Shown: positions 18,954 to 57,944 of the stretch, one piece after another
Position numbering within the stretch: the stretch's first letter is position 1
How the letters are laid out: each line of letters starts with the position of its first letter
Assembly (NCBI RefSeq): GCF_016612865.1
Contig: NZ_JAENZZ010000002.1
Location: forward strand, 1,426,001 to 1,490,000
Direction of reading: 5' to 3'
DNA length: 64,000 nucleotides
Origin: Blastococcus sp. TML/M2B
GTDB lineage: Bacteria; Actinomycetota; Actinomycetes; Mycobacteriales; Geodermatophilaceae
Notes under the pieces: model-generated
Seen by the model: only the letters and a program-made list of their open reading frames with translations
What the model was told of the DNA's origin: nothing
Database searches by the model: none
Translations under genes and position numbers: made by a program

Positions 18954-21900
18954 GCGCCTCCCCCGCGACGACGGACCCCGCTACCCCGACCGATCCGGAC
19001 GCCGGCGCGGCCGCGGGCGGCCGCCGGGACCCCCGCCGGGTGCTCGCCTGGGCGCTCGCCGCCCTCGCCCTCGTGCTCGCGGTGGCGCTGCCCCTGGCAC
19101 CGGTGCGGGTGGACACCCCCGAGGTGCAGTGGCCGCTGGACCCCGCGGATCCGCAGTCGACCGTCGCCCTGTTCATGCCCTACCGGCCGATCGACGTGCG
19201 GGCCGAGATCCCCTGCGCGGCCGTCACCGCCCTGGCCGAGCGCCAGGAGCCGGGTGCGGCGCGGGGCGTGCTGCTCGCGACGACGCTGCGCGACTCCGAG
19301 CGGGGCACCGCGCGCGGGCTGCGCGCGTCGGTCACCGGCACGAACATGCGGATCATCTCCTCGGGCGAGGAGCTGTGGAGCGGCGACGTCCCGGACTCCG
19401 CTGACTGCACGTTCGTCATCGCGGCCCTCCAGTCCGGCACCACCGTGACCCTCGAGCAGCCCGGCGCCGAGCCGGAGCTGCTCGGCGAGCGGCCGGGCCT
19501 CGGCGTCCCCGAGATCACCGCGTTCACCACCGACCTCACCGCCGCCGACGGCGCGTCGCCCTCGGTCACCGCGCACCCGGACGCCCGGTTCCAGACCTCG
19601 CCCACGACGCTGAAGACGGCGCTCGTCGTCGGGCACGTCGCCGCGCTGCTCGGCTGCCTGTGGCTGCTCTGGCGGGCCGGCCCCGCGCCGTCCCGCCGGC
19701 ACCGCGAGCCGCTGCCCCCGCTGGTCGGGCCGCCGGCCGACCGGAGCGGCCGGCTGTGGGGGCTGCTGGCCGACGCCGGCGTCGTCGTCACCCTGGTCGT
19801 GTGGACCCTCATCGGGTTCATCAACACCGACGACTACTACTACAGCGCCGAGGCGCGCACGCTGGACTCCGCGGGTTACGTCGGCAACCAGTTCCGTTTC
19901 TTCAACGTCCCCGAGATCCCCTTCGTCCTGCACCAGACCCTGCTGGCGCCGCTGACGGAGCTCTCCACCCAGCCGCTGGTGCTGCGGCTGCCCTCCCTGG
20001 CGGCGGGCCTCGCGGTGTGGTGGCTGCTCAGCCGCCAGCTCGTGCCGCTGCTGGTCGACCGGCCGCACCCCGCGCTGCGCGTCGTGGCGGGCCTGGCCCT
20101 GCTCGCCTGGTGGCTGCCCTGGAACATCGGCGCCCGGCCCGAGTTCCTCATCACCCTCGCCTGGGCGGGCACGCTGGCGCTGGCGCTGCAGGCGATCCGC
20201 CGGGAGCGGGTGTGGCTGCTCGGCGTGGCCGCGCTGATCGCCGGCACCGCGGTGACCATCACCGCCTCGGGGCTGGCGTGCGCGGCCACCCTCGTCGTGC
20301 TGCTCCCCCGCCTGTGGCCGCTGTTGCGCCGTTCGGCGCTGGGGCTGTGGGCGACGCTGGCCCTGCTGGTGGCCTCGGCGAGCGCGGCCTCGACGATCGT
20401 CTTCTCCGACGCGACCCTGGCCACCGCGACCACCGCCCTCCGGGTGCACCGCGAGGTCGGGCCGGTGCAGCCCTGGTACAAGGAGGTGCTGCGCTACTAC
20501 TACCTGACCAATGGGCCCGGAACTGGCCCAGCGGACGTTCACCCGCCAGCTGGTGGTCCTGCTGACCCTCGCCCTGCTGGTCGGTGTCACGGCGGTTCTC
20601 ACGCGGGTCACCCGCCACTCGACGAGGCGCGTCACGTGGGCGGTGCCGGCGCTGGCCTACGTCGCGGCCAACCTGACCTTCTTCCTCTCCCCCACCAAGT
20701 GGACCCACCACTTCGGTGCGCTGGCGGCCCCGGGGGCGCTGCTGCTCACCGTGGCCGTCGCGGTGCTCGTGCGCCGCCGACCCGACCGCTGGGCGTCCCT
20801 GGCGCTCACCGTCGGTCTCGCGCTGACCGTCGCGCTCGCCTTCCACGCGGGCAACCACCCGGTGGAGTACTCGGGCTACCGGGTCGTCCGGGACCTCCCG
20901 GCAGTGCTGGGGAACCCGGCGGCGTGGCTGCTCGGCGCCCTCGCCGTCGTCGGAGCCCTCTGGTGGTACCGGCGCCGCGCCGCCTCGCCCGGCGAGGTCT
21001 CCGGCAGGCCCTGGCCCGAGGCGCCGATCAGCATCGCGGTGGCGGCGCTGGCCGCGTCGGTCATGGTGCTCACGGCGAGCGGCGCGGCGGCCAACATCCT
21101 GCTGCGCAACACCTGGTCGATGGCCGGGGACACCACCTCGGCGCTGATCGGGGACCCGGGATGCGGTCTGGCCGACGACGCCGTGGCCCTGACCGGGACG
21201 GGACGGCTGCCGGTGGCCGACGTGGGCGGGCAGGCCTCACCCCCGGCCGACGACGACGCCTCCCCGGCCAACGGCTCCGGCGACCGGCTCGTGGTCCCGC
21301 AGGGCGCCGAGCGGTGGACCACCCGCGACGACGACGCGGTCGACCGGACCACGGAGGTGGTCACGCCCTGGTTCGACATCCGCGAGCTGACCCAGCGGGA
21401 GGTGCTGGGGATGGGCCTGGCCGGGCGACCGGACGACGGCACGACCGCGGTCGCCGAGTACGGGGACGCGGAGGGACGCGTCCTGCAGGGGCTCGACATC
21501 GAACTCGGCGACGAGGACGACGAGGACTCCGAGGACACCAGCGTCGGGGAGGGCAGCTGGACCCGCCGGCTGGTCGGCGCCTCGCGGGAGTTCCCCGAGG
21601 GGGCCGCGCTGGTGCGCTACCGGCTGACCGACCAGAACCTGACCGCAGGGGGCTGGCTGGCCGTGGCGGAGCCCTACCGGGTGGTGGGGCAGCCTCTGAC
21701 CGAGCTGTTCGAGGGGAAGTCGGTGGCGCTGGACTGGCCGATCGGCTTCAACATGCCCTGCGTGGAGCCGCCCCGGGTGGCCGACGGGATGGTGGAGGCG
21801 ATCGACCTGCTGGTCCTCGGGGACACATTCTCCGACGACCCGGGCCTGCTCATCGTCGACAACAAGGGCGGGGCCTACGGCACGGTGGACGAGGTCGCCG

Positions 21901-22079
21901 GGATCACCCGGTACCGCGGCTTCCTCCCCGACACCTCCGCGGACGTCACGTGGGGCGCGCTGGTCGAGCTCGACTACGACCTGCCCACCGACGCCTTCCG
22001 CGTCGTGGACGGCAGCCGCACGATCGCCGGCTGGGGCTGGTGGCCCGAGGCCGGCCCCGGCCCGTCCCCGGAGGACTGA
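18950..22079 (+). CDS. Arabinosyltransferase (Emb family), interrupted by a 1-base insertion
   Basis: Emb proteins are GT-C membrane enzymes that add arabinofuranose from decaprenyl-phospho-arabinose to wall arabinan. The repaired protein is about 1,042 residues, normal for the family. It has a TM, an N-terminal carbohydrate-binding domain and the catalytic loop INTDDYYYSAEARTLDSAGY (Asp pair near residues 294-295). About a dozen TMs follow, with VQPWYKEVLRYYYL, and a C-terminal carbohydrate-binding domain with an acidic insert. The frame breaks between 20510 and 20518 (an extra A or C around ACCAATGGGCCC). Upstream codons up to RYYYLT are in one frame and the family homology continues from ELAQRTFTRQL in another. 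A polishing error is the likely cause. Confidence 0.88.
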
Positions 22080-22495: not shown

Positions 22496-22508
22496 ACAAG
22501 GAGCCGTC

Positions 22509-23886
22509 ATGCAGATCGACATCATCGAGACCACCGGCCTCGGCGACCGCAGCTACCTGGTCAGCGACGGTGGGGTCGGCGTCGTGATCGACCCCCAGCG
22601 CGACATCGACCGCGTGCTGGCGTCGGCCGGGAAGCGCGGCGTGCGCATCGCGCTGGTCCTGGAGACCCACCTGCACAACGACTACCTGACCGGCGGCCTC
22701 GAGCTCGCCCGGACGGTCGGCGCGCGGTACGTCGTCCCCGCCGGGGACGACGTGGCGTACGAGCGCGTGCCGGCCGCCGACGGCGACGTGCTCGAGGCCG
22801 GCCCGATGCGACTGCGGGTGCTGCACACGCCGGGGCACACCCACCACCACGTCAGCTACGCGCTCGCCGACGCCGACGGCGCCGTGCAGGCCGTCTTCAC
22901 CGGCGGCTCCATGCTGTACGGCTCGACCGGACGCACCGACCTGGTCGGACCCGAGCACACCGACGAACTCACGCACGCGCAGTACCACTCGGTGCGCCGG
23001 CTGGCCGACGGAGCTGCCCGCCGGCACCCCGGTGTTCCCCAGCCACGGGTTCGGCTCGTTCTGCGCCGCCACCCCGACCAGCGGCGACTCCTCGACCGTC
23101 GGCGAGCAGGCCCGGGTGAACCCGGCGCTCACCCAGGACGAGCAGACCTTCGTCGACGAGCTGATCGCCGGGCTCACCGCGATCCCGGCCTGGTACGCGC
23201 ACATGGGTCCGGCCAACGCCGCGGGCCCGGCGCCGGTGGACCTCTCGATGCCACGGCCGGTCGACCCCGCCGAGCTGGCCGAGCGGCTGGCCGCCGGCGA
23301 GTGGGTGATCGACCTGCGCAGCCGTACCGCGTTCGCGCACCGCCACCTGCCCGGGGCGCTGAACTTCGAGCTGGCGATCGCCACCTTCGTCACCTACGTC
23401 GGCTGGCTCGTTCCGTGGGGCGCGCCGATCACGCTGATCGGGGAGACCGCGGAGCAGGTCGCCGACGCCCGCCGCGAGCTGGTCCGCATCGGCATCGACC
23501 GGCTCGCCGGCGCGGCGATCGGCAGCCCCGAGGCCCTGGCCGCCGGCCGGGAGCCGGTCTCCTACCCGGTGAGCGACTTCGCCGGGCTGGCTGCGGCGAT
23601 GGCCGCCGACCCCGACCTGGTCGTGCTCGACGCCCGCCGCACCGACGAGCGCGCAGGCGGTGGGGTCCGCGGCTCGCGGCACATCCCGATCCACGACCTG
23701 CCCGGCCGGATCGACGAGGTCCCCGACGGGGACGTGTGGGTCTACTGCGGCTCGGGCTACCGCGCCTCGATCGCCGCCTCCCTGCTCGCCCGCACCGGCC
23801 GCCGGCCCGTGCTGGTCGACGGCGGCTACGACGACCCCGGCACCGGCGCGGCCGCCGTCGGGCTGCACGACGCCTCCGCCCGCTGA
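22509..23886 (+). CDS. cstB: CstB-like persulfide dioxygenase-rhodanese fusion, interrupted by a 1-base insertion
   Basis: The repaired product is about 458 residues. It has a metallo-beta-lactamase fold with THLHNDYLTGG and PGHTHHHVSY supplying the His/Asp ligands of a mononuclear iron. A first rhodanese-like domain (VIDLRSRTAFAHRHLPGALN) lacks the catalytic Cys. A second rhodanese has an intact loop, VYCGSGYRAS. This order equals staphylococcal CstB, which oxidises low-molecular-weight persulfides to thiosulfate. The frame breaks at 23010-23011, where GACGGAGCTG should read GACGAGCTG; homology then resumes as ELPAGTPVFPSHGFGSFC. An AAGGAG site precedes the ATG. It probably acts in the cytoplasm with the repressor upstream and exporter downstream. 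Confidence 0.87.
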
Positions 23887-26594: not shown

Positions 26595-26595
26595 G

Positions 26596-31462: not shown

Positions 31463-32620
31463 GCGGCGTCCTCGCGGGCCGCTGCCGCGAGCGCGCGGCC
31501 CAGCAGCTCGCGCTCGGCGTCGCTCGGGCCGGCGCCGCGGACGTGGTCGACGAACTCCTCGGCGACCTCGAGGTCGCTGCGGCCGCGCAGCCGCTCCTGG
31601 TAGCTCCGCCCGTCGGCCCCCGCGCCGGCACCGGTCCACTCCAGGTGCACGCAGTGCGGGAAGCGCTCGCGCAGCTGCCGCATCGGGTCCCCCGGGCGGA
31701 CGGTGTCGGTCAGCCGCGCGGAGACGAAGTGCTCCTCCGCGGCCGCGTGCTCGGGCGCGGCCAGCAGCTCGGCGAGCTCACCGGTGAGGATCGAGAGCTG
31801 CCGGGGCGTCGGCAGCGGCACGGGCCGGACGTCGGCCAGGCCGGCCGCGTCGAGCTCGACCAGCCAGGCCTGCTTCTGCTGCCCCGCCTCGCCGAAGGAG
31901 TAGGCCAGCGGCGAGCCGCTGTAGCGCAGCCGCGGGGTGAGCGTCTGCGGCCGGTGCAGGTGCCCCAGCGCGACGTAGTCCACGCCGTCGAAGACGCCCG
32001 CCGGCACCAAGGTCCACGCCGCCGACGCAGATGTCCCGCTCGCTCTCGCTGGGCAGCCCACCGCCGACGAAGGCGTGCGCCAGCACCACCGACCGGGCGC
32101 CCGGGCGGAGGAAGAGATCGGCGCGGATGCGCTCCATCGCGGCGCTCAGCACGCCCTCGTGCCCCCGCACGGCGGCCTCGCCCCGGCCGGCCAGACCCAG
32201 CTCGTGCCGGGCCACCTCGGGCTCCAGGTACGGGATGCCGTAGACGGCCACCTCGCCGTGCTCGTCGGACAGCAGCACCGGCTCGTCGAGCGCCGGGGTG
32301 ACCGCCCGGACGTGCAGCCCCGCGACGGCGAGCAGCCCGGAGAAGGTGCCCAGCCGGCGGGCGGAGTCGTGGTTGCCCGGCGTCAGCACGACCTGCGCAC
32401 CCGCCGTCAGCAGCCGCCCGACCACCCGGTCGAGCACCGCCGTCGCGTCCGCCGAGGGGACCGCGCGGTCGTAGACGTCCCCGGCGACGACCACGACGTC
32501 CACCGACTCCGCGACGACCACCTCGGCCAGCCCGCCGAGCACGGCCTCCTGCTCGGCGAGCAGATCGGTGCCGTGCAGCGTCCGGCCGATGTGCCAGTCG
32601 GAGGTGTGCAGCAGTCGCAT
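31459..32620 (-). CDS. sbcD: Exonuclease subunit SbcD, interrupted by a 1-base insertion
   Basis: This Mre11-type nuclease partner of SbcC has LLHTSDWHIGRTLHG, VVVVAGDVYDRAVPS, LTPGNHDSARRLG and VLAHAFVGGGLPSESERDICVGG, which hold the metal-binding Asp/His/Asn residues. Homology continues in another frame as GVFDGVDYVALGHLHRPQTL. The break is an extra A at 32009-32010 (ACCAAGG should read ACCAGG). The repaired length is about 387 residues, normal for actinobacteria. A TAACGT seven bases before the ATG overlaps the stop codon of the upstream acyltransferase gene, so sbcD probably has its own leaderless promoter. Confidence 0.9.
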
Positions 32621-32627
32621 GCCGGCG

Positions 32628-32633
32628 ACGTTA
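32628..32633 (-). promoter_or_regulatory. Candidate -10 box of sbcD
   Basis: TAACGT on the minus strand sits seven bases before the sbcD ATG and includes the TAA stop of the preceding acyltransferase gene. No ribosome site is present in between. Confidence 0.45.
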
Positions 32634-36962: not shown

Positions 36963-37047
36963 CGTAACCCGTGACCGGGCGCGCCCGGCCAGGGATGAGC
37001 ACGGCGGCCCCACCACCGCGGCCGAGGTGCGCCAGCGAGGAGGAAAC

Positions 37048-39563: not shown

Positions 39564-39569
39564 TACAGT
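39564..39569 (+). promoter_or_regulatory. Candidate -10 box of accA3
   Basis: TACAGT lies about 30 bases before the accA3 start, leaving a short leader that holds the GAAGGAGAG ribosome site. No clear -35 was found. accA3 may also be read through from maf. Confidence 0.4.
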
Positions 39570-39599
39570 CCGACCGGTCCACAGACGAAGGAGAGCCCG

Positions 39600-43241: not shown

Positions 43242-43283
43242 GGTCCGGGCGAGGTGGTCCGGGCGAGGTGGTTCAGGCGAGGT
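43242..43283. repeat. Three tandem 14-base units across the lpdA stop
   Basis: Two perfect units of GGTCCGGGCGAGGT (43242-43269) are followed by a third with two changes (43270-43283). The third unit includes the lpdA stop codon at 43273. On the coding strand the units read ACCTCGCC..., the same bases as the last lpdA codons, so the array looks like repeated duplication of the gene's end. Confidence 0.85.
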
Positions 43284-44677
43284 GGTCGGCGCCCATCAGC
43301 CGGCGCCCGGCCTCGGTGATCGATCCCGAGAGGGAGGGGTAGATCGCGAACGTCTGGGCGAGGTCGGCGACGGTCAGCCCCTTGGTCACCGCCAGCGCGA
43401 TCGGCAGGATCAGCTCGGAGGCACCCGGCGCCACCACCACGCCGCCGAGGACCACCCCGGTCGAGCGGCGGGCGAACAGCTTGACGAAGCCGTCGCGCAG
43501 GTCGCTCATCTTTGGCGCGGGCGTTGGTGGCCAGGGGCAGCCGGACGACGTCGACCTCGGTCCACTCCGGCAGGCTCTTCTCCTGCACGCCCACGGTGGC
43601 GATCTCGGGGTGGGTGAAGACGTTGGCCGCGACCGTCTTGAGCTTGATCGGGCTGACCGCCTCACCGAGCGCGTGCCACATGGCGATCCGGCCCTGCATC
43701 GCCGCGACCGAGGCGAGCTGGAAGACGCCGGTGACGTCGCCGGCGGCGTAGATGCCGGGCACCGAGGTGCGCGAGACGCGGTCGACGACGACGTGGCCGG
43801 ACTCGGTGAGCCCGACGCCGCAGAGCTCCAGGTTCAGTCCACCGGTGTTGGGCACCGTGCCGACGGTCATCAGCGCGTGCGAGCCCTCGACGGCGCGCCC
43901 GTCGGTGAGCTCGACGACGACGCCCTTCTCGGTCCGCCGCACGCCGGCGGCCCGCCCGCGCTCCAGCTTGCCGCCGCGGGACTGGAAGACCTCCTCGAGC
44001 ACCTCGGCGGCGTCGGAGTCCTCACCGGGCAGCACCCGGTCGCGGGAGGAGACCAGGGTGACCGGCACGCCGGCCTCCAGGTAGCCGGAGGCGAACTCGG
44101 CGCCGGTGACCCCGGAGCCGACGACGACGAGGTGCTCGGGCATCTCGGTGAGCTCGTAGACGTCGCGCCAGTCGAGGATCCGCTCGTGGTCGGGCTCGGC
44201 GCCGGGCAGCACCCGCGGGTCGGCACCGGTCGCGATCAGGACGACGTCGCCCTCGAGCCGCTCGGTGACCGCGCCGTCCTCGCCCAGCACCTCCACGCGG
44301 TGCGCGGCCAGGCCGCGGACCTCGTCGGCGAGCCGCCCGCGCCCGGTCACGATGCGCACGCCCTCGCCGGCCAGGCGGGCGTGGATGTCGCCGGACTGGG
44401 CCAGCGCCAGCCCCTTGACCCGCTGGTTGACCGCGGCGAGGTCCAGGCCGACCGCGGCCAGCTCGGCGCCGTGCACGCCGAGGGCGGAGGAGTCGTGCAC
44501 CGAGGTCATCGCGCCGGCGGCGGCGATGAGCGCCTTCGAGGGGACGCAGTCGGTGAGGACGCTGGCGCCCCCGATGCCGTCGCGCTCGATGACGGTGACC
44601 TCGGCACCGAGCTGCGCGGCGACCAGCGCGGCCTCGTAGCCGGCCGGTCCGCCGCCGATGATGACGATGCGGGTCAT
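43273..44677 (-). CDS. lpdA: NAD(P)H-quinone oxidoreductase of the LpdA type, interrupted by a 1-base insertion
   Basis: This flavoprotein disulfide reductase homologue has FAD motif IVIIGGGPAGYEAALVAAQLG, NAD motif LVVVGSGVTGAEFASGYLEAG, and GIYAAGDVTGVFQLASVAAMQGR. The redox-disulfide position reads GGASVLTDCVPSK, with only one of the two Cys, as in mycobacterial LpdA. That enzyme is a quinone reductase, not a lipoamide dehydrogenase. The frame breaks in TTT (43511-43513), one T too many; repaired it reads NARAKMSDLRDGFVKLF and then the dimerisation domain. The total is about 467 residues, normal for the family. AAGGACCC precedes the ATG. Confidence 0.9.
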
Positions 44678-44744
44678 GGGTCCTTCTTCGTCGGGGAGGG
44701 TTCGGGCGTCGGAGCCATTGTCCCCGCCCGGCCGCGGTCCGGCG

Positions 44745-45548
44745 TCAGCGCCGCCCGGCGCCGGTGTCCGGCCCGGCCGGCCGGGCGGAGGGCGCGGGCT
44801 CGCGACGGATGCGCCAGACCGCGGAGACCGCCTCGACGGCGATGCCGGTGTTCATCTTGGACTCGCCGAGCTCGCGGTCGCGGAAGGTGATCGGCACCTC
44901 GACCACCCGGGCGCCGGCCTGCAGCGCGCGGTGGGTCGTCTCGATCTGGTAGCCGTAGCCGTTGGCCTCGAACGAGTCGACGTCCAGCCGGGTCAGCAGG
45001 TCGGTGCGCCAGGCCTTGAACCCGCCGGTGAGGTCGCGGATGCCGGCGCGGAGCACGGTGCGGGCGTACAGGTTGCCGACCCAGGACACGGTGCGGCGGC
45101 TCCAGGGCCAGTTCGCCACCGCGCCGCCGGGCACGTAGCGGGAGCCGATCACCAGGTCGGCGTCCTCGATCGCGGCGATCAGCGCGTCGATGGCCTGCGG
45201 GTCGTGCGACCCGTCGACGTCCATCTGCACGATGACGTCCCACCGCCCGGCAGCGAGCGCGTGCGTGAAGCCGGCGACGTAGGCGGTGCCCAGGCCGAGC
45301 TTGCCGGAGCGCTCGAGCAGCTCGACCCGGCCGGGGTGCTCCGCGGCGAGCGCGCGCACGAGGTCCCCCGTCCCGTCCGGTGAGCCGTCGTCCACGATCA
45401 GGACGTCGGGCGCCACGGGGCGGGCCAGGACCGCCTCGACGTGCCGGCGGACGTTGTCCGCCTCGTTGTACGTCGGCGTCACGACCAGGACGCGCACGCT
45501 GTTCCTCTTCTCTCGCGGGTTCTCGGGCGGGGCCGGGGTGGACGTCAC
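44745..45548 (-). CDS. Polyprenol monophosphomannose synthase (GT2, Ppm1/DPM1-like)
   Basis: The 267-residue GT2 enzyme makes polyprenyl-phosphate-mannose from GDP-mannose on the inner leaflet. It shows VLVVTPTYNEADNVRRHVEAVL, VDDGSPDGTGDLV, the DxD-type MDVDGSHDP, GSRYVPGGAVANWPWSRR and GGFKAWRTDLLTRLD, all typical of DPM1 homologues. It lacks the acyltransferase domain fused in mycobacterial Ppm1. The GTG overlaps the stop of the upstream mannosyltransferase gene (GTGA), pairing donor synthesis with donor use. Confidence 0.9.
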   Translation of the reverse strand: MTSTPAPPENPREKRNSVRVLVVTPTYNEADNVRRHVEAVLARPVAPDVLIVDDGSPDGTGDLVRALAAEHPGRVELLERSGKLGLGTAYVAGFTHALAAGRWDVIVQMDVDGSHDPQAIDALIAAIEDADLVIGSRYVPGGAVANWPWSRRTVSWVGNLYARTVLRAGIRDLTGGFKAWRTDLLTRLDVDSFEANGYGYQIETTHRALQAGARVVEVPITFRDRELGESKMNTGIAVEAVSAVWRIRREPAPSARPAGPDTGAGRR

Positions 45549-47060
45549 GTGGGCACCCCTGCGGGTTGTCGCCGTCGTCGTCGCCGGCTCACCCCGACGT
45601 GCACCAGCCCGGCGACGACGGCCACCCCCAGGACGACGAGCACCAGCTGTTCCGGTCCCGGCCGCTCGTAGAGGGCGAACACGGGGTGCCCGCCCGGCAG
45701 CACGGTGAACAGCAGGGCCACCGACCACAGCACCACCACGAGGCGCTCGGCGAGGACCCCGGCGGCGGCGAAGAGCATCGTCGGCCAGATCAGGTACCAG
45801 GGCCACACGACCGAGCCGGTGAGGACGACGGTCAGCGCGATCCAGGAGGTCACGCGGACCAGCCCCCAGCTCCGCAGCCGGGTCAGGAAGAGCAGTCCCA
45901 GCACGACGGCGACGACGATCCCGGCCTGCCGCGCGCCGTCGATCGGCGGGTCGTCCACGTCGAGGGCGAAGGCCAGCGCCGTCGTGGGCGTGAGCGCCTC
46001 CAGCGCCTTGCCGGGGGTGTCGAGGTTGCCCAGGAACGACCAGCCGTAGCCGGACAGCTGCACCGACAGCGCGAACAGGCCGGCGCCCAGGCCGCCGGCC
46101 AGCACCAGCGCCCGCAGCCGGGCCGGCCAGCCCTCCTGGCGCTGCGCCCAGTCCACCCCGATCACCAGGACGACGACCAGCGCCGTGGCCTTGATGCCGG
46201 CCGCACCCACGCAGAGCACGATCCCGAGCAGCGGGCGGTCGAGCAGCGCGAGCAGCAGGCCCGGGAGCAGCAGGCCGAGCATGAGCGCGTCGTTGTGGTT
46301 GCCCGACACCAGGTGCAGCAGGACCAGCGGGTTGACCGCGCCCAGCCACACCGCGACCGACGGGCTGCCGCCCAGGTGCCGCGCGATGCGGGCCACGACG
46401 ACGGCGCACACGGCCCAGGCGGCGACGCAGAGCACCCGGAGCGCCACCAGCATCGCGAGCTCGCCCTGGTCGAGCAGCCGCGACAGGCCGCTGAGCAGCA
46501 GCACGAAGGGCGGGGCTGTACGGGGTGGGGCTGAACCGCCAGAACTCCTCGGCGCCGCGCACCGCCGCGATGTCGCCGAGGACGCCCGGCCCGTCCTCGA
46601 ACGGGTCGACGCCGAGCTGCACCGCGTTGCCGATGGCGCCGTAGAACCACGGGTCCGCGGTGAACAGCGGCGGCCCGATGACCAGCGGGACCGACCAGAC
46701 CAGCCCGACCAGCAGCAGCCACCGGGCGCGGACGCCGCGGCGCACCGCGAGCCCGGCGAGCAGCCAGGCGGCGGCCCAGACCCCGAGCGCGGCGGAGCTC
46801 CACGCCCGCGCGGTGTCGTAGCCCAGCGCGTCGGGCGTCAGCTCCGAGTGGTCGTCGAAGAACCAGAGGTCGGGCTCGTCGAGGTGCAGGCCCAGACCGT
46901 GCCCGGCCACCGCGAGGTAGGTGGTGCCGACCAGCCCGAGCAGGCCGCTGAGCACAAGGAGGGCGATGGTCGCGCCGCCGGCGCGGGGCGGACCGGGGTC
47001 GGTGGCCGTCGGCGCGGCCCCGGCTGCGGTGGACCCGGCCACGCTCGTGCTGACGGCCAT
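45545..47060 (-). CDS. mptB: MptB-like polyprenol-phosphomannose-dependent alpha-1,6-mannosyltransferase, interrupted by a 1-base insertion
   Basis: The repaired protein is about 504 residues with roughly 12 TMs, a GT-C enzyme of the MptA/MptB group that extends lipomannan backbones outside the membrane. Markers are VIGPPLFTADPWFYGAIGNAVQLGVDPFEDGP (acidic first loop), RFSPTPYSPAFVLLL, LVSGNHNDALMLGLLLPG and SVVWPWYLIWPTML. The frame breaks in GGG at 46508-46510, one G extra. It is shorter than mycobacterial MptB (about 590), so the exact linkage is inferred. The next gene supplies its donor. Confidence 0.82.
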
Positions 47061-47323
47061 CTCCTGACTGCTCCCGTGGACCGGCTGGTCGCGACACGTC
47101 GTCGGCCCGCCACGGCGATGGCAGGACGGCCGAGGGTAGCGCGCCGCCCCGGTTCCCGGTCAGCCGAAGCGGGGCGGAGCACCGGACGCCGAGCGTGTCG
47201 CTCCTGATCCCCTTAACACTGCGTGAGAACCTAGATGCTGACCGTGGTCGCGCGTGGTGTCGCCACCTGACTCCGGCGCCGCGTACGCACAGGTCGGCGT
47301 CACGATCTGACAAGGAACCGCTC

Positions 47324-47845: not shown

Positions 47846-49950
47846 GGGGTGCGGTCACCCGCCTGCTCGTCGTCCTCGGGCTGGTCGGGGCGGCGCTGGT
47901 CGCGCCGGTCCTCACGAGCAGCCCGGCCGCACCCGCCCAGGCCGCGGACACGCGGTACTTCGACCCGGGCAACATCATCAGCGACGCGGTCTTCTTCGAC
48001 GGGCTGGCGATGGACGCCGGCGCGATCCAGGACTTCCTGAACCTGCGCGGCGCCGGCTGCACCGTCGGCACCGACGGCTCGCCGTGCCTCAAGAACTACC
48101 GGATGAACACCACCGACCGCGCGGCCGACGCCCTGTGCGGCGGCTACCGCGGCGCCTACGACGAGACCGCCGCCCAGGTCATCGCCCGCGTGGCGGCCAC
48201 GTGCCGGGTCAACCCGCGGGTGCTGCTGGTCCTCCTCCAGAAGGAGATGGGGCTGGTCACCGCCACCAACCCCACCGCCAAGAAGTACGAGCGCGCCGCG
48301 GGCTACGCCTGCCCCGACACCGCCAACGGCGGGTGCGACCCGACCTACGCCGGGCTGCAGAACCAGCTGTACCGCTCGGCCTGGCAGTACCAGCGCTACG
48401 CGTCCTCGCCGGCCAGCTACCAGTACAAGGCCGGCCGCAACAACATCATCCAGTGGCACCCCAACTCCGGGTGCGGCACCTCGACGGTCTACATCGCCAA
48501 CCAGGCGACCGCGGGCCTCTACATCTACACCCCGTACCGCCCCAACCAGGCCGCGCTCAACGCCGGCTACGGCACCGGCGACAGCTGCTCCTCGTACGGC
48601 AACCGGAACTTCTGGAACTACTTCACCGACTGGTTCGGCTCGACGCAGTCGGCCGAGGGCTCGGCGCTCTACGCCAAGTACCAGAGCCTGGGCGGCAACG
48701 GGGGCGCGCTGGGCAGCGTCCAGTCCCCCTACCTCTGCGGGCTGGCGAACAACGGCTGCTTCCAGGTGTTCTCCAAGGGCCTCATCTACTGGACCCCGAG
48801 CACGGGTGCCTGGGCGGTCACCGGCGCGATCCTCGACAGGTACACCGGGCTGGGCCGGGAGTACGGCACGCTGGGCTACCCCCTCTCCGACGCGAACTGC
48901 GGGCTGGCCGGCAGCGGCTGCTACCAGGTCTTCGAGCGCGGGACGGTGTACTGGACCGCCGCGACCGGCGCCTACGCCGTGTACGGCCTCGTCGGCGCCA
49001 AGTGGGTGTCGACCGGCGCCGAGAACGGCGCGCTCGGCTACCCGACCGGTGACCCGTTCTGCGGGATCAAGGACGCCGGCTGCTTCCAGCCCTTCCAGCG
49101 CGGGCTCGTCTACTGGACCGCCGCGACCGGCGCGCACACCGTCTCGGGGGACATCGCCACCAAGTGGGGCGCGATCGGTCGCGAGAACGGCGCGCTCGGG
49201 TACCCGACGATGGACCGCGCCTGCGGCCTGGTCGCCGGCGGCTGCTACCAGATCTTCCAGTTCGGCACGATCTACACCGCCCCCGACGCCGGCACGCACG
49301 TCGCCAAGGGCGGCATCGGCTACACCTGGATGGGCAAGGGCGCCGAGAACGGCCCCCTCGGCTACCCGGTCGGCGACGAGGTGTGCGGCCTGGTCGGCGG
49401 CGGCTGCTCCCAGGACTTCCAGCGGGGCAGCGTCTACTGGTCCGGCGCCACCAACGCGTACACGGTGCAGGGCCTCACCCGCGCCAAGCACGACTCGGTG
49501 GGCCGCGAGCGCGGGGTGCTGGGCTACCCGACCATGGAGAAGTCCTGCGCCCTGGTCCGCGGCGGCTGCTATCAGGTGTTCCAGTACGGGACGGTGTACG
49601 AGTCCCCCGCCGGCACGTTCATCGCCAAGGGCGGCCTCGGCCACACCTGGATGCTGCTGGGCGCGGAGAACGGCTCGATGGGCTACCCGACGTCCGACGA
49701 GTACTGCGGGCTGCGCGAGAACGGCTGCTTCCAGCTGTTCGAGCACGGCTCGGTGTACTACGCCCCGGCGTTCGGCGCCTTCCCCGTCGACGGGCCCATC
49801 CGCGACGCCTGGATCTACCAGGGCGCCGAGAACGGCTGGTGGGGCTACCCCACCGGCAAGCCGCAGGGCGTGCCGGGCGGGGCCACGCAGCGCTTCGAGC
49901 GCGGGACGGCGACCTGGACCAGCGGCACAGGGGCGGTCACCTTCGGCTGA
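47842..49950 (+). CDS. Exported protein with lysozyme-like N-terminal domain and eight Cys-containing LGFP repeats
   Basis: The 702-residue protein has a signal peptide (AQA|AD). An unassigned domain of about 230 residues follows, with paired Cys, NPRVLLVLLQKEMGLVT, GYACPDTANGGCDPTY and NQLYRSAWQYQRY; its helix-with-Glu and Gln/Tyr layout recalls lysozyme/transglycosylase folds (inference). From about residue 285, eight units of about 54 residues follow the pattern LGYP-x5-CGL-x2-GGC-x-Q-x-F-x2-G. The pattern continues YW-x3-TGA-x2-V-x-G-x-I-x3-W-x3-GxENG. LGFP repeats bind the actinobacterial wall. The two Cys per unit, absent from classical LGFP units, probably form a disulfide. It is coupled to the lipoprotein gene. 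Confidence 0.85.
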   Translation: MRGAVTRLLVVLGLVGAALVAPVLTSSPAAPAQAADTRYFDPGNIISDAVFFDGLAMDAGAIQDFLNLRGAGCTVGTDGSPCLKNYRMNTTDRAADALCGGYRGAYDETAAQVIARVAATCRVNPRVLLVLLQKEMGLVTATNPTAKKYERAAGYACPDTANGGCDPTYAGLQNQLYRSAWQYQRYASSPASYQYKAGRNNIIQWHPNSGCGTSTVYIANQATAGLYIYTPYRPNQAALNAGYGTGDSCSSYGNRNFWNYFTDWFGSTQSAEGSALYAKYQSLGGNGGALGSVQSPYLCGLANNGCFQVFSKGLIYWTPSTGAWAVTGAILDRYTGLGREYGTLGYPLSDANCGLAGSGCYQVFERGTVYWTAATGAYAVYGLVGAKWVSTGAENGALGYPTGDPFCGIKDAGCFQPFQRGLVYWTAATGAHTVSGDIATKWGAIGRENGALGYPTMDRACGLVAGGCYQIFQFGTIYTAPDAGTHVAKGGIGYTWMGKGAENGPLGYPVGDEVCGLVGGGCSQDFQRGSVYWSGATNAYTVQGLTRAKHDSVGRERGVLGYPTMEKSCALVRGGCYQVFQYGTVYESPAGTFIAKGGLGHTWMLLGAENGSMGYPTSDEYCGLRENGCFQLFEHGSVYYAPAFGAFPVDGPIRDAWIYQGAENGWWGYPTGKPQGVPGGATQRFERGTATWTSGTGAVTFG

Positions 49951-50117: not shown

Positions 50118-52275
50118 ATGACTGCACAGACCCTGGACGAGCGCGGCCCGACGCGGATCCCCGGTCTCCCGGCAGTTCCACCCCGCCCGTCCCCGGCGGG
50201 CAGCGGGCACACCTTCCGCGCCGACATCCAGGGCCTGCGCGCGGTCGCCGTCGGCCTCGTCGTCCTGTACCACGCGGGCCTGCCCTGGCTGTCCGGCGGC
50301 TTCGTCGGCGTCGACGTCTTCTTCGTCCTCTCGGGCTTCCTCATCACCCAGGGCCTGGTCACCGAGCTGGAGCGCCGCGGCACCATCTCGCTGGCCGGCT
50401 TCTACGCCCGCCGCGCGCGCCGGATCCTCCCGGCGGCGGCCGTGGCCCTGGCCGGGACCGCGGCCCTCACCGTCCTCCTCCTGCCCCAGATGCGCTGGGC
50501 GCAGGTGGCGCAGGACCTCGTCCAGAGCTCGATCTACCTGGTCAACTGGGACCTCGCCGACCGCGCGGTGGACTACTCCGCGCGAGACCAGGCCGCGTCG
50601 CCGCTGCAGCACTTCTGGTCGCTGGCGGTGGAGGAGCAGTTCTACGTCGTCTGGCCGCTGGCGATCCTCGCCGTCGTGGGCCTGGTCCGCCTCGCCCGGA
50701 GCCGGCGCCGGAGCGACGCGCCCACCGGGATCTCCCGCCTGCACCTCGCCGTGCCGCTGCTGCTCATCGGGGTGCCCTCGCTCGCGTGGTCGATCTCCCT
50801 CTCGGCCGCCGACCCGGGCAGGGCCTACTTCGTGACGACGACCCGCATGTGGGAGCTGGCGCTCGGCGCGGCGCTCGCCGTCGTCCCCGTCGTCGCCCCG
50901 GCGAGCGCCCGGCTGAGCCGGGCCGTGGGCTGGGCCGGGCTGGCCGCGATCGTCTGGGCCGCGGTCACCTACGACGCCTCGACGGTCTTCCCGGGCTCGG
51001 CGGCGCTCCTGCCCGACCCTCGGCGCCGTCGCCGTGCTGTGGTCGGCCCTGTCCGGGGACGCCCGCCGGCAGAACCCGCTGCTGCGCACCCGCCCGATGA
51101 CCTGGGTCGGCAGCCTCTCCTACTCCCTCTACCTCTGGCACTGGCCGGTGCTGATCATCGCCACCGCCCAGACCGCCGACGGCGACCTCCGGCTCCGCTG
51201 GGGGCTGCTGCTGGTCGCGGCGTCGGTCGTCCCGGCCTGGCTGAGCCTGCGGCTGGTGGAGCGCCCGGTGCTCTCCTCCCCCGCCCTGCGCCGCTCCAGC
51301 GGTCCGGCCCTGCTCCTGGGCGCGGTCTGCACGCTGGTCGCCCTGCTGGCCGGCCTGGCGCTGAAGAACCACCAGCTCGCTGCCGCCGCGGAGACCCCCG
51401 TCGTCGTCAACTTCGACGCCTCGGTGACCCCGGGAGCCAACGCGCTGCGCTGGGATCCAGCCAACGGCACCCCGCAGGACTCGTTTCCCGTGCTCGTCCC
51501 CGACCCGGCGGTGGCGTTCGGCGACGTGCCCGTGCTCGACGGGCACGAGTGCGTCGTCGACCTGAGCTCGGTCGCGGCGAACCCCTGCTCGTTCGGCAAC
51601 CTCGCCGCCGGCACCACGATCGCCCTCGTCGGCGACTCGCACGCCGAGCAGTACCTGCCGGCCGTCGAGGCGGCGGCGGTCGAGCGCGGCTGGCGGGTCG
51701 ACGTCTACACCCGGGGCTCCTGCCCGTTCAACGCGCTGACCGTCGACCTGGACGGGGCCCCGAACACCGCGTGCGACGCGCACAACGACAACGTGACCGC
51801 CGCCCTGCTGGCCGATCCGCCGGACGCGCTGCTGGTCGCGGGCAGCCGCTACGCCGCCTCCCTCCCCGACCGCCCGGTCCCCTCGCTCGAGGAGAGCAAG
51901 CCGCTGCTGGCCGAGGGCTACCGCGAGGCGTGGGCGCCGTTCGTGGCGGCCGGCATCCCGGTGGTGTCGCTGCGCGACACCCCGCGCCCGGACGTCCTGG
52001 TGCCCGAGTGCGTCGCGGAGAACCAGGACCGCCTCAGCAGCTGCGCGATGGACCGCGACGAGATCCTCTGGGCCGACGGCCCCGAGGTCACCGCCGCCAC
52101 CGGCACGCCCGGCGTCGAGCTGCTGGACCTGACGCAGTGGATCTGCCCCGCCGACAGCTGCCCCGCCGTGATCGGCGGCGTCGTCGTCTACCGGGACGGC
52201 AACCACCTGACGGCCACCTACGCCCGCACCCTCGGCTCGATGGTCTCCGACGAGCTGGCCGCCCTGCTGGGCTGA
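50118..52275 (+). CDS. SGNH-type acyltransferase (OafA-like), interrupted by a 1-base insertion
   Basis: The repaired protein is about 718 residues. An N-terminal acyltransferase-3 domain of about ten TMs has ADIQGLRAVAVGLVVLYHAGLPWLSGGFVGVDVFFVLSGFLIT, FYARRARRILPAA and SLAVEEQFYVVWPL. It is followed by an external SGNH hydrolase-like domain (TTIALVGDSHAEQYLPA and a late DGNHLTATYA with the Asp/His pair). Such fusions move acyl groups onto surface sugars or peptidoglycan. The frame breaks at 51012-51015 (CCCGACC should lose one base); repaired it reads AALLPTLGAVAVLWSALSG. The ATG at 50118 has GAGGAAG; an upstream GTG at 50088 is less likely. Confidence 0.86.
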
Positions 52276-52296
52276 CGCCCCTCGGCCGCGCCCGGC

Positions 52297-54843
52297 TCAG
52301 GCCCGGTCGACCACCCCGGTGCCCGCGCGCCAGATCAGCGTGCCGCCCTCGAAGCGCTGCGCGCGCCCGCCGCTGACCGCGTAGTCCGACCCCAGCGGGT
52401 AGCCCAGCGACCCCGCCTCGGCTCCGGCGGCCACCCACGCGTCGCGCAGGGCACCGCCGACGATGCCCACACCGGTGGCCGGCGCCCAGTAGATCGAACC
52501 GCCCGCGAAGTGGGTGAGGCACCCGCCCGCACGCAGCCCGCACTCCTCGTCGCCCACCGGGTAGCCCAGCGCGCCGTTCTCCGCGCCGCGCACCAGCCAG
52601 GTGTAGGCGATGCCGCCCTTGATGGCGCGCGCCCCGGTGGCCGGCGACCAGTAGATCCAGCCGTGGTCGAACACCTGGAAGCAGCCGCCGCCGACCAGCC
52701 CGCAGGCGGTGTCGGTCGCCGGGTAGCCCATGTGCCCCCGCTCCTCGCCCAGCAGGCCGTACCGGTCGCGGACGGCGCCGGTCAGCAGGTGGACGCCGGA
52801 GGCCGGCGACCAGGTGATCCGGCCGTGCTGGAAGTTCTGCGCGCAACCGCCGGCCGGCAGGCCGCACTCCTCGGAGCCCACCGGGTAGCCGAAGGCGCCG
52901 TTCTCCGCGCCCCGGCCCATCCACGTGTAGCCGATGCCGCCCTTGGCCACGGCGGTGCCGGCGGCGGGCGAGTCGTACACGACGCCGTACTGGAACACCT
53001 GGAAGCAGCCGCCCGCGACCAGGCCGCAGGCGAGCTCGGCGGCCGGGTAGCCCAGACCGCCCCGCTCGCGGCCGTGGGCGGTCCACATCGCGGCCACCGC
53101 CCCGCTGACCACGCGGGCACCCGAGGCCGGGGACCAGTAGACGTCGCCGCCCTGGAAGGACTGCGCGCAGCCGCCGCCCGGCAGCCCGCACGACGGGCCG
53201 CCCGTGGGGTAGCCGAGGGCGCCGTTCTCCGCGCCGCCCTGCACCCAGCGCGCGGCGACCGAGCCCTGGACGACGTGCGCGCCGGTAGCCGGCGACCAGA
53301 AGACGCTGCCGTAGCGGAACACCTGGTAGCACCCGCCACCGGCGAGACCGCAGGCCTCCGGCGCCAGTGCCGGGCCGAGCGCGGCGGAGGACGCCTGCGC
53401 GACGAGCGCGATGGGGGTCTGCCCGTCCGCGCGGGTCCGGATGCCGACGACGGCGGAGGTCGCGGTCCGGCTCTGCACGGTGACGACGAAGTCGCCGCCG
53501 GCCACGGTCACGGCCGACCCCGGCGGCAGGGCCTGCCGGGTGTCGGTGTCCCACCCGGCCGCCGGGGACGGGGTGCCGTCGAGCAGCAGCGAGGTGTCGG
53601 ACCCGGTGCCCGTCCGCCGCAGCAGCACGCCGGCCTCCAGGCCGGGGCGGTTCGCCGTCGTGCCCAGCCAGCCGTCCATGCCGCTCGCCGTCCGCAGCTC
53701 GAGCCAGTGCTGCGCGCCGCGGGCGTCGGTGAGCCGCACGGCCCGCGTGCCGCTGCGGCCCGACACCGGAGAGAGCGTGACCGTGGCCCCGGCGCCCCCG
53801 GCGGTGAGGTCCACCCGCGCGGCCGTCGGCAGCACGCCGAGCAGCGCCGCCTGGACGACGTTCAGCGACCCGATCCGCTCCCACGACGCACCCATGACGT
53901 CGTACAGGTCGTAGTAGGCCTTGGTCCGGCAGGTGCCGGCGTCGGTGGCGCCGTCGCACTGGTGGGCCGACGAGTGCCCGAGGCCGAAGTTGTGGCCGAG
54001 CTCGTGCGCCATGATCGAGGTCTCCGAGCCGCGCACGAGCAGGTTGCCGCCGTCGGACAGGGCGCGGCCGACCTCGGCGAGGCCGTAGGCGCAGCCGGGC
54101 TGCTGCGCGGGGTAGCCGGGGACGTAGACCAGCAGGTGCCGGCCGGCGGCCTCGGCGAACCGGACGAGCGGGTGCGCCGCGACCTCGGCCCACAGCGCGA
54201 ACGGGTTGTCACAGCCGGCCGTCGTCGTCAGCCAGTCCGGCGTCGCCGCCGCACCGTGCAGCCGGACGGCGCCGTCGGTCTCGCTCTCCCAGAAGTCGGC
54301 CACCGGCCCGTTGAGCGCGTCGACCAGGCGCTGCGCGGTCATCCCGTCGGCCGTGGTGCCCGGCGGGCGGACCAGCACGACGGTCACCTCGTTGGTGAAG
54401 GGGGCCAGCGCGGGCGCCGTCGCGGGCGGTGCCTCCGGGGCCACGACCTCGGCCTCGAGCAGCTCGTGCGCGGGGGCGAGCCCGAGACCCGCGGCCGCCT
54501 CGTCGGGCACCTGGTCGCCGAGGGTCACCTCGACGGTGGCGCCCAGCGGGAGGTCCTCGACGTCCTCGGTGAGGACCCGGACGCTGTCGCCCTCGTCGGT
54601 CCGGACCCAGCTCAGCGGGCCGTGCTCGGCGCCCCCGACGGGGTCGGCGTGCTCGGGCCAGGCCTGCACCAGTTCGCCGACGACGGTGCCGCCGGCGTCC
54701 ACGACCGGGGCCTCCGCCGGCGTCGGCACCGGGGAGTCGTCACCCCGCGCCGGGGCCGCCGGGGCCGCCAGCGCCAGCACGGGCACGGCGACGGCCGCGA
54801 GGACGACGCCCCGGAGACGGGGGGACCGGGAGGTGAGCAGCAC
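52297..54843 (-). CDS. Exported gametolysin-like (M11) metalloprotease with seven LGFP repeats
   Basis: The 848-residue protein has a signal peptide (APARG), a propeptide-like region and the zinc motif MAHELGHNFGLGHSS with LYDVMG downstream. A beta-rich domain follows. It shares this whole plan with the protease at 41442-43139, but from about residue 500 it carries seven LGFP units such as LGYPTGGPSCGLPGGGCAQSF, each with the same two-Cys signature as the protein at 47842-49950 (the last unit lacks Cys). The repeats would tether the protease to the wall instead of the membrane. The GTG at 54843 was chosen because TGGAG lies eight bases upstream and the signal peptide then starts directly; the longer frame adds no homology. 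Confidence 0.86.
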   Translation of the reverse strand: MLLTSRSPRLRGVVLAAVAVPVLALAAPAAPARGDDSPVPTPAEAPVVDAGGTVVGELVQAWPEHADPVGGAEHGPLSWVRTDEGDSVRVLTEDVEDLPLGATVEVTLGDQVPDEAAAGLGLAPAHELLEAEVVAPEAPPATAPALAPFTNEVTVVLVRPPGTTADGMTAQRLVDALNGPVADFWESETDGAVRLHGAAATPDWLTTTAGCDNPFALWAEVAAHPLVRFAEAAGRHLLVYVPGYPAQQPGCAYGLAEVGRALSDGGNLLVRGSETSIMAHELGHNFGLGHSSAHQCDGATDAGTCRTKAYYDLYDVMGASWERIGSLNVVQAALLGVLPTAARVDLTAGGAGATVTLSPVSGRSGTRAVRLTDARGAQHWLELRTASGMDGWLGTTANRPGLEAGVLLRRTGTGSDTSLLLDGTPSPAAGWDTDTRQALPPGSAVTVAGGDFVVTVQSRTATSAVVGIRTRADGQTPIALVAQASSAALGPALAPEACGLAGGGCYQVFRYGSVFWSPATGAHVVQGSVAARWVQGGAENGALGYPTGGPSCGLPGGGCAQSFQGGDVYWSPASGARVVSGAVAAMWTAHGRERGGLGYPAAELACGLVAGGCFQVFQYGVVYDSPAAGTAVAKGGIGYTWMGRGAENGAFGYPVGSEECGLPAGGCAQNFQHGRITWSPASGVHLLTGAVRDRYGLLGEERGHMGYPATDTACGLVGGGCFQVFDHGWIYWSPATGARAIKGGIAYTWLVRGAENGALGYPVGDEECGLRAGGCLTHFAGGSIYWAPATGVGIVGGALRDAWVAAGAEAGSLGYPLGSDYAVSGGRAQRFEGGTLIWRAGTGVVDRA

Positions 54844-54936
54844 GGGTGGACTCCAGGCAGACGGGGAAGATCCCCCTCTGCATCGGCCCCGGGACGCCCC
54901 GACTTGAGAGCGGGCGACCCGGGTCACCCTGTCGGC

Positions 54937-56580
54937 TCAGTCCGTCCGCTCGTCCAGCTCCGCGCAGAACGGCTCGCCGTACAGGCGCTCGTAGTTCTCC
55001 TGGACGCCGTCGAAACGGACCGCCACGAGGTAGTACTCGGGCCAGCCCTGCTTGGTCATCCAGTCGAACAGCGTCCCGCAGCGCACGTCCTCGGGCACGT
55101 CGCCGTCGGCGGACTGGGACACCATCCGGGCGTTGACCGGGTAGTTGCCCTGCGTGATCTCGGCCAGGGTCATGTTGAGCGCGACCTGGCCCAGGACGAA
55201 GGCACCGGCCAGCGGCAGCACGACGGCCAGCAACCGGGCCCCGCGCCCCCGGCGCAGCGCCACGAGCACCAGCACGATCAGCGCCGCGACGGCGATCACG
55301 CCGACCGCGTAGGAGAGGTACACCTGGCCGGGCCGGGCCATCTTCTCGCTGTACTTGACGGTCATCGCGTGGGTCGCGGTGGCGACCGCCCAGAACGTGA
55401 CGAGGGCGGCGGCCGGCACGATCCAGGGGCTGCGCCACGCGGGCAGCCGCTCGGCCTCCGGGGCGACGTGCGCCCAGCTGTCGGTCCCGCTGCGGCGGAC
55501 CCAGGCGTACCCGATGACGCTGACCAACAGCACCAGAGCGGCGGCCACGGCGACCGCTCCCCCGTCGAGGGCGGGCGCGCCGGCGGACTCGCTGAGGTAG
55601 GCCCAGCCGCCCCCGGGGAGGGCGCCGAGCATCCCGTCGACCCAGGCGGAAGCCCCGGCCCGGCCGAGCGCCAGCGTCGTCCCGCCGTAACCGGACTCGT
55701 CCGACGGCACGGCCAGCAGCACCCGGCCGCCCACGAACATGACCGCGGGCAGCGCCACGGCGGTTCCCATCAGCACGAGGCAGCGGCGCCGGATCTGCGC
55801 GCGGTCGACGGCGGTGAGCGCGGTGAGCACCACGGCGACGGCGACCGCCGCGATGGCCCCGACGAGCATCTCGTAGTACCAGACCGCCATGACGCCGAGC
55901 GCCGAACAGATCACGATCGACCGCTTGTCGCGGTTGCCCGGGGCGATGGCGCGCAGCGCCCAGGCGAGCGTCCACATGCCGATCGCCGTCGAGCCCCAGC
56001 CCGCGGGGCCGTAGGAGACGACGGGGTCGTCGGACCACGGCACGTGCAGCTGCAGCGTGGCCGCCGTGACGGCCGACAGCAGGGCGAACGTGGGCCAGAA
56101 CTGCACGCGCAGCGCCGGCGACCGGCGGAGCCCCCAGACCAGCACCGACGCGGCGCCGGCCACGCCGAGGGCGATCATCGCGAGGGTGGCCAGCACGTCG
56201 TAGTACTGCGGCGAGACGCCGGCGGAGGCGCTCAGCCGGTAGGCCAGGAAGTGGTACAGCGCGCCGAGGGTCTGACCGACCGGGTTCGAGTGGCCGGCCT
56301 GCTGGCCCGCCGAGAACCCGAAGGTCAGCGCCTCCCAGAGGCTGCCGTCGGTGATCGCGTAGGTCTCCTGGAGCGCCTGGAAGTCGTCGGCGATGATCGG
56401 GACCCGGGCGGCCGGGACGTACCCGACACCGAGGACGGCGGCGCCGGACAGCGCCCAGCCCGCGTTGCGGAGCCGGCCGCGCCCGCGGGCACCCGGCTCG
56501 TCGACGACGGCCGCGGACGGCTGCTCGTCGGTGGCGTGGACCGGGTCCAGGACGGCGGTGGCGCCGGGGTGCTCAGCCAT
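54937..56580 (-). CDS. Polytopic membrane protein of unknown function, GT-C-like
   Basis: This 547-residue protein has about 11 TMs. The first external loop contains RVPIIADDFQALQETYAITDGS, where the Asp pair is in the position of the catalytic acids of GT-C glycosyltransferases. A later loop has HVPWSDDPVVSYGPAGWGS. The C-terminal ~80 residues are soluble and contain two Cys. I do not recognise a named family. Its ATG overlaps the flippase stop by eight bases, so it is the last gene of the 61,012-54,937 operon and may polymerise or modify the glycan moved by the flippase. Confidence 0.68.
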   Translation of the reverse strand: MAEHPGATAVLDPVHATDEQPSAAVVDEPGARGRGRLRNAGWALSGAAVLGVGYVPAARVPIIADDFQALQETYAITDGSLWEALTFGFSAGQQAGHSNPVGQTLGALYHFLAYRLSASAGVSPQYYDVLATLAMIALGVAGAASVLVWGLRRSPALRVQFWPTFALLSAVTAATLQLHVPWSDDPVVSYGPAGWGSTAIGMWTLAWALRAIAPGNRDKRSIVICSALGVMAVWYYEMLVGAIAAVAVAVVLTALTAVDRAQIRRRCLVLMGTAVALPAVMFVGGRVLLAVPSDESGYGGTTLALGRAGASAWVDGMLGALPGGGWAYLSESAGAPALDGGAVAVAAALVLLVSVIGYAWVRRSGTDSWAHVAPEAERLPAWRSPWIVPAAALVTFWAVATATHAMTVKYSEKMARPGQVYLSYAVGVIAVAALIVLVLVALRRGRGARLLAVVLPLAGAFVLGQVALNMTLAEITQGNYPVNARMVSQSADGDVPEDVRCGTLFDWMTKQGWPEYYLVAVRFDGVQENYERLYGEPFCAELDERTD

Positions 56581-57944
56581 GCCGGGCCTCCCGGGCGACG
56601 TCGAGGCGGTCGAGGACGAACAGCGCGCCGGCGGTCAGCGCACCGATGATCCCGATGGCCACGATCATGGCGCGCAGGTCCGGCAGCAGCATCGACGCGG
56701 CGACCCACTGCAGCACGCCGGCCACGAACAGGGCGACCACGGCGCGGGAGGACGCCCGGGCCGTGTGGCTGATCAGCAGCCCCTGGGCCAGGGCCCACGG
56801 CAGGTAGGCCACGGTCATCCAGGGCAGCAGCGCGGCCGCGGGGGCGTAGCCCGAGCCGGCGCCGAAGAGGATCGCCACGAGGGTGTCGCCGATCAGCGCG
56901 ACCACCCCGGCCAGCGCGAGGCCGCTGGCGAGCACCGTGGCCAGCACGATGTTGACCCCGAAGCGCACCGCCCCGGCGTCCGCCCCGCGGAACACGAACC
57001 GCGGCAGCAGGTAGACGCGACAGCACGGTGGGCACCAGCAGGCCCATCTTGGCGAGCACCGCGGCGGCGGCGAAGGCCCCCGAGGCGTCGTCGACGCTGT
57101 GGATGCGGACGAGCACGACGTCGATGTTGGTCAGCCAGGCGAACGAGAGCGTCAGGAGCATCAGCACGGTGCTCTTGCGCGAGAAGGCGCTGTGCCCGGT
57201 GATCAGCAGGTCCCGGGTCTGCCAGCCGGCGAGCACCGCGACGGCGACGATCGCGACGAGCACCGCGACCACGACCGAGACCGCGCCGAGGCCCGCGGCC
57301 AGGGCGGCGACGGCGAGCAGCAGCCGCAGCACCTGGGAGGCGGTGGAGTAGCCGGAGACGAGCCGGGCCTTGCCGGCGCCCTGCAGGCGACCGAGGGCGA
57401 CGCTGAACAGGAAGCTCGGGACGATGGTCAGCGCGGCGAGGTTCACCGCGAGCCGGCTGGTGTCCAGGGCGTCGGCGAGCAGCGGCGAGGCCAGCGCCAC
57501 CGCGGCGGCGAACCCGCCACCGAGCACGAGCGCCTCGACGGTCGCGCCGTCGATCCCGCGGCGCGGGCGGTCCGCCGGGGGCGAGGTGAGCGCGGCGGCG
57601 GTGACCACCGCGACGGAGTTCTGCAGCGCCGAGGCGCCGATGCTGGCGATGTTGACGATCGCGAGGAACGCGGCGAGCAGGCCGAAGCCGGCCGGGCCGA
57701 GGCCGCGGCCGGTGACGACGTGGAAGCCGGAGGTGGAGGCGATCCCGAGGGCGGCGAGCCCGCCGACCGAGATCAGCGGCCACGCGTGCCGGCGGAGGTA
57801 GCCCAGCGACATCTGGCGGGCCGAGACGGGCGCCTCGTGCGCGAGGACCTCGGTCGCGGCCGGGGCGGCGAGCTCGGCCCGGACGGCGTCGAGGGTCACG
57901 GGGGCCGGCCGCTGCGGAGCGACCTCCGGGTGCACGGTGGTCAC
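56573..57944 (-). CDS. Polysaccharide flippase (MOP superfamily, Wzx-like), interrupted by a 1-base insertion
   Basis: The repaired product is about 456 residues. After a 65-residue polar N-terminus come about 12-14 TMs, with GLAALGIASTSGFHVVTGRGLGPAGFGLLAAFLAIVNI, LGRLQGAGKARLVSGYSTASQVLRLLLAV and FLASTNIDVVLVR-like TNIDVVLVRIHS, as in polysaccharide-exporter MOP proteins. The frame breaks near 57015; dropping one A gives VLSRYLLPRFVFRGADAG, a normal family sequence. The GTG overlaps the upstream glycosyltransferase stop (GTGA). It would flip the undecaprenyl-linked unit assembled by the upstream enzymes. Confidence 0.82.

Follow-up and report, generated by a model that had tools for sequence, protein, structure and literature searches.

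Racon, a polisher of draft contigs, works by default with a window length of 500 bases, and its windows begin at the first base of the contig. Published passages state that the contigs are divided into non-overlapping windows (PMC11232133) and that Racon was run with a window length of 500, in one case for four iterations (PMC11117363, PMC10027117). CONSENT, by comparison, uses overlapping windows because the ends of a window may be left without a consensus (PMC7804095). The procedure in the cited Racon passages would fit the frame breaks described here, which we call scars, in three respects: windows on the draft contig that do not overlap, a length of 500 bases, and iterated rounds. These same passages (PMC11232133, PMC11117363, PMC10027117) contain no description of errors at the joins between windows, and we found no published account of Racon join errors or periodic frameshifts in a search that mostly did not reach subscription papers and code repositories.

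Indels of the kind treated by Kastor and Homopolish are tied mainly to sequence context, for example, to homopolymers. In the passages describing them, these long-read indels are small, break genes, and are detectable against relatives, as are the scars reported here (Kastor, PMC12007338; Homopolish, PMC8011154). The scars differ from them in being tied to positions on a 500-base grid.

We analyzed a stretch of 64,000 positions, hereafter the window, corresponding to bases 1,426,001–1,490,000 of contig C2 in the assembly of Blastococcus sp. TML/M2B (4,114,186 bases in four contigs, C1 to C4). The AccA3-like protein of this genome has its closest named matches in strains of Blastococcus, followed by Modestobacter, and 22 further genomes were placed in its genus. 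The nine frame breaks of the window are, with a probability that we put at about 0.96, consensus errors left by a polisher that took each contig from base 0 in windows of 500 bases, without overlap.

Nine frame breaks in the window

Reading frames were followed with a model (HMM) of seven states, the three frames of each strand and a non-coding state, trained on the long frames of the genome itself that have a coding-like composition, with an order 4 context in the main run. Frame steps were sorted by whether the upstream frame runs into a stop no more than 45 bases away, as it does at true gene junctions; errors mostly lack one. Segments shorter than 90 bases and gaps longer than 30 bases were excluded from the counts. 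Direct frame-to-frame steps alone yielded no +1 step in the window because the model path crosses short non-coding stretches; with up to 30 bases allowed between segments, all nine were recovered.

The window contains exactly nine +1 steps without a gene end, all at the places where single-base breaks had been noted before. With training on the window alone, the model adds to these nine no further +1 step that lacks a nearby stop, and the HMM found no −1 step of this type in the window, where the claim that all breaks are insertions holds. The nine breaks are listed below with their evidence; HMM intervals in brackets are those obtained with window-only training.

20510–20523, + strand, +1 break in an emb-type arabinosyltransferase gene (about 18995–22076); HMM (20511–20523)
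23010–23013, + strand, +1 break in a metallo-beta-lactamase-fold/rhodanese fusion gene (about 22500–23883); HMM (23010–23013)
32009–32013, − strand, +1 break in sbcD (about 31465–32632); HMM (32009–32013) and DNA gaps in 10/10 relatives
35009–35013, − strand, +1 break in an acyltransferase-3 gene (about 33911–35225); HMM (35009–35011)
39007–39014, + strand, +1 break in maf (about 38933–39539); HMM (39011–39014) and DNA gaps in 10/10 relatives
43511–43516, − strand, +1 break in an lpdA-type NAD(P)H-quinone dehydrogenase gene (about 43276–44701); HMM (43511–43512) and DNA gaps in 11/11 relatives
46508–46533, − strand, +1 break in an mptB-type mannosyltransferase gene (about 45578–47063); HMM (46508–46533) and DNA gaps in 2/2 relatives
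51012–51020, + strand, +1 break in an AT3-SGNH acyltransferase gene (about 50127–52272); HMM (51017–51018)
57015–57021, − strand, +1 break in a polysaccharide flippase-type gene (about 56582–57944); HMM (57017–57021)

Because 1,426,000 is a multiple of 500, phases in the window are also phases in the contig. The nine sites fall at 10–20 modulo 500, close to the 8–18 originally given, and nine random sites would lie within some arc so narrow with p ~5e-13, the width of the arc being taken from the data.

Two kinds of comparison with relatives bear on these breaks. DNA alignments with 11 relatives, from which matches of less than 68% identity and the lesser of overlapping rows were dropped, cover 28,953 of the 64,000 positions with at least two relatives. 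Gap clusters with fewer than two aligned relatives or with less than 60% of the relatives shifted were discarded. Agreed +1 gaps were obtained at 31995–32010 (10/10 relatives), 39007–39014 (10/10), 43511–43513 (11/11), and 46512–46515 (2/2), and no other frame-changing gap on which the relatives agree lies inside a gene in the covered positions. Two further clusters, 36966–37045 and 39544–39600, passed the filter; the relatives differ there in size and sign, and one cluster spans a gene start and the other lies between two genes. Because this DNA coverage is incomplete, protein comparison was used for the five remaining sites, the two pieces of each gene being searched separately in relatives. 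In a comparison with further loci (L141–L145, L147–L151, and L153–L157), those matching only one piece of a gene were dropped (four of five for the flippase-type gene). Each of the nine genes has its two pieces in a common frame in 1 to 11 relatives.

The evidence differs in depth among the genes. Both emb pieces match the Pfam family Arabinose_trans and share a frame in G009 (68% and 49% identity) as well as, more distantly, in G011 (32% and 26%). The fusion gene encodes a Lactamase_B fold followed by Rhodanese (Pfam) and is a putative cstB, a name given to it earlier that is in use for this domain pair; its pieces share one frame in all five loci L141–L145. A close paralogue of this gene is present at 169,413–170,282 of C2, with 89% identity and an open frame of 516 aa. 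The sbcD pieces match Metallophos and SbcD_C (Pfam) and, above the cut-off, TIGR00619 (NCBIfam); they form one frame in 10/10 relatives with matches, as do those of maf, whose long piece matches Maf and whose 25-aa piece has no profile match. The lpdA-type gene, with Pyr_redox_2/Pyr_redox_dim (Pfam) and NF005883 above the cut-off, is in one frame in 11/11 relatives. No Pfam family was found for either piece of the mptB-type gene; one scores above and the other below the cut-off of NF038066 (MptB), and the gene is in one frame in 3/3 relatives with matches. In the acyltransferase-3 gene, the Acyl_transf_3 profile is matched at positions 2–60 by the short piece, with 29.9 bits (slightly below the cut-off, 31), and at 69–325 by the long one; G005 and G011 carry it in one frame, and G008 and RYN_171 match only the short piece.

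The AT3-SGNH gene encodes Acyl_transf_3 and SGNH domains (Pfam). Its pieces are in one frame in five of the five loci L153–L157 and, among four weak matches in the 11 relatives, in two, the other two matching a single piece. The flippase-type gene shows a weak Polysacc_synt match in one piece (24.5 bits, below the 28.2 cut-off) and none in the other. No match to it was found among the 11 relatives, and of L147–L151 only L147, in genome G020, matches both pieces, in one frame and with 88% identity each. The G020 counterparts of these two genes are 88% identical and about 5 kb apart on one contig; the other matches listed among 23 genomes of the genus reach at most 56% (acyltransferase) and 35% (flippase) identity. 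The region 50127–57944 is perhaps a polysaccharide cluster with a patchy distribution. Tandem repeats of 162 and 324 bases are present at 48897–49260 and 52519–53355, inside long coding segments that lie on opposite strands.

Short runs occur at some of the nine sites, as would be expected if the genes were expressed by programmed frameshifting or varied in phase at slippery runs. However, the sites have no more of such runs than other positions do: in this small sample, a homopolymer run of at least 3 lies within 16 bases of five of the nine sites, versus 48.8% of positions, and a run of at least 4 at two of the nine, versus a background of 12.5%, so that no homopolymer excess was found at the nine window sites. 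Moreover, the genes are unrelated, their relatives read straight through, and the breaks follow a period of 500. We regard this explanation as the least probable of all those considered here.

Phase and period across the genome

The frame-step analysis was extended to 22 blocks, including the window, from all four contigs (849,094 bases or 20.6% of the genome). It yielded 139 +1 steps, 87 of them without a gene end. Eighty of these 87 lie at phase −30 to +50 modulo 500 (p = 3.7e-55), an arc of 80 of 500 bases (16% of the circle) that was chosen after the histogram of the full sample had been seen, so this p value is not blind. With the window excluded, 71 of 78 remain in the arc, and 20 of the 22 blocks contain at least one in-arc event. 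The proposed count of phases along the contigs, here over a fifth of the genome, gives frameshifts that are not evenly spread and did not refute the polishing interpretation.

A scan of the integer periods from 100 to 3000 requires no choice of an arc. The Rayleigh power is highest at period 500, with 73.8 of a possible 87, followed by 250, 125, and 100; the highest power beyond the harmonics of 500 is 9.4, at the neighboring period 499, and then 7.6, at 1502. Steps that meet a gene end provide an internal control. Ten of the 52 such +1 steps are in the arc, versus 8.3 expected, and 25 of 156 such −1 steps, versus 25.0 expected; ordinary gene junctions therefore show no phase enrichment in this 20.6% sample.

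Real pseudogenes, or true frame mutations of the strain, might look similar in some respects: both pieces of most genes are still recognizable, as in young pseudogenes, and a few steps out of phase do exist. Yet true mutations cannot follow a 500-base grid from the contig starts with 80 of 87 in the arc, and the genes affected include the widely conserved sbcD, maf, and lpdA, with relatives in one frame. This origin is extremely improbable. The nine genes, which the original prediction had advised treating as intact, are on this comparison of sequences very probably intact, and no biology is involved in their breaks.

The arc leaves out only 7 of the 87 +1 steps that lack a gene end, and two of these miss it narrowly, at phases 56 and −33.5. 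Ordinary long-read errors are the usual residue of long-read-only assemblies and, in the part of the source that treats them, mostly concern homopolymer length (PMC8812927). Spread at random, they would give no phase, whereas the steps out of the arc are these seven and the nine sites show no homopolymer excess, making such errors as the cause of the breaks scarcely credible. Another two of the steps out of the arc, at C2 2,033,410 and 2,034,411, are 1,001 bases apart and share the phase −89. In the block that contains them, earlier steps have phases of about +10 and −11, and further frame steps are clustered at this place. The shared phase perhaps reflects a local change of length by polishing near the contig end.

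Steps of −1 that lack a gene end number 22; half of them (11) fall within the arc (p = 2e-4), and a minority of the scars therefore seem to shift the frame by −1. That all scars are insertions, as stated for the window, does not extend to the genome. Together, the 80 and 11 in-arc steps over 1,698 joins amount to about 5% of joins, which is a lower bound because scars outside genes are invisible. The corresponding rate in the window is 9 of 128 joins (7%).

Grid origin, drift, and the polishing program

In the first blocks of C1, C2, C3, and C4, of 20–120 kb each, the median phases are 4.5, 2.5, 0.75, and 3.0 (9, 14, 2, and 3 in-arc events). Elsewhere block medians range from −18.5 to +37; blocks further in, with one to two events per block, reach −17.5 and +34 in C1, +37 in C2, and −18.5 in C3. 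The common phase of 8–18 reported for the window is thus a local value of a drifting phase and not a constant of the genome. A grid that starts from the first base of each contig and loosens inward is what is expected of windows laid on a slightly different draft. The near-zero phase at the contig starts and its wandering therefore strengthen the polishing interpretation, and the proposal of consensus polishing in 500-base windows is supported by the period, the origin, and the drift alike.

A fixed period would also be expected from a fault of file handling, such as lines of fixed length joined with stray characters. This fault, however, should mark every line end and should not drift, whereas about one join in 20 is marked here, with a phase that shifts by tens of bases along the contigs; we consider it very unlikely, if slightly less so than pseudogenes or random homopolymer errors.

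Polishing would have acted as follows. A long-read draft would be cut, from base 0 of each contig, into non-overlapping 500-base windows; a consensus would be made for each window alone, and the pieces would be butted together. At about 1 join in 20 the consensus would retain one base too many, and less often the frame would shift the other way. As the length of the output would change slightly, joins would drift tens of bases off the multiples of 500. Each round of polishing would clear earlier scars and make its own, leaving a net drift near zero despite the extra bases.

We considered a simpler form, in which each scar adds one base and pushes the grid by one. The slopes of phase per scar in three long blocks are −0.01±0.27, 0.56±0.40, and −0.55±0.22, not near one, and this form was rejected. 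With no such climb of the phase, losses of bases elsewhere must balance the gains; in its last round, polishing must have taken away roughly as many bases as it inserted. Such balanced losses may be explained, though not proved, by repeated rounds. From these features we infer long-read data, Racon as the program, more than one run, and no effective later correction.

The polisher was most likely Racon. Other tools use 500-base windows too, for example, CONSENT; but according to the passages cited, its windows overlap by 50, which should suppress bare joins (PMC7804095). No other tool with non-overlapping 500-base windows was met in the papers cited here. Window-based polishing by a program other than Racon is rather unlikely, though far less so than the explanations that do without polishing windows.

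Consequences and other genomes

Frame breaks near the local grid phase should be distrusted anywhere in this genome. Extrapolated from the roughly 90 in-phase steps in the fifth that was sampled, the whole genome would contain some 430, and perhaps, as a rough guess, a tenth of its genes may be wrongly called broken or missing. The phase test of frame steps, with gene-end steps as an internal control, needs no reads and could be used to screen public assemblies.

Other genomes served as controls, with the model trained on each of them with an order 3 context; trained at order 3 on the window alone, it still gives the nine breaks. Ten genomes, five of the same genus and five of the same order (704,808 bases), contain a single +1 step without a gene end, in G012, and none was found in five more genomes of the genus (400,000 bases). 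The fourteen genomes apart from G012 are thus free of such steps in the 1,044,808 bases sampled. Steps of −1 without a gene end number four in the ten genomes, five in the five more, and four in an enlarged sample of G012.

G012 is a single-contig genome of the same order as Blastococcus sp. TML/M2B. In its enlarged sample of 460,000 bases, which includes the first 60,000, two +1 steps lack a gene end. Their phases are −6 and −9, both as a grid of 500 bases would predict. G012 is possibly a second scarred genome with a much lower rate, two events being too few to claim it. We suggest tentatively, and as somewhat less probable than the contrary, that many public genomes carry position-locked polishing scars, which the phase of frame steps would reveal from the sequence alone, with neither reads nor a reference. 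If so, the phase of the grid would also record the history of polishing rounds. The two steps of G012 are located on contig 1 at 45493–45495 (about 5493 in locus L160) and 509481–509501 (about 9481 in locus L223).
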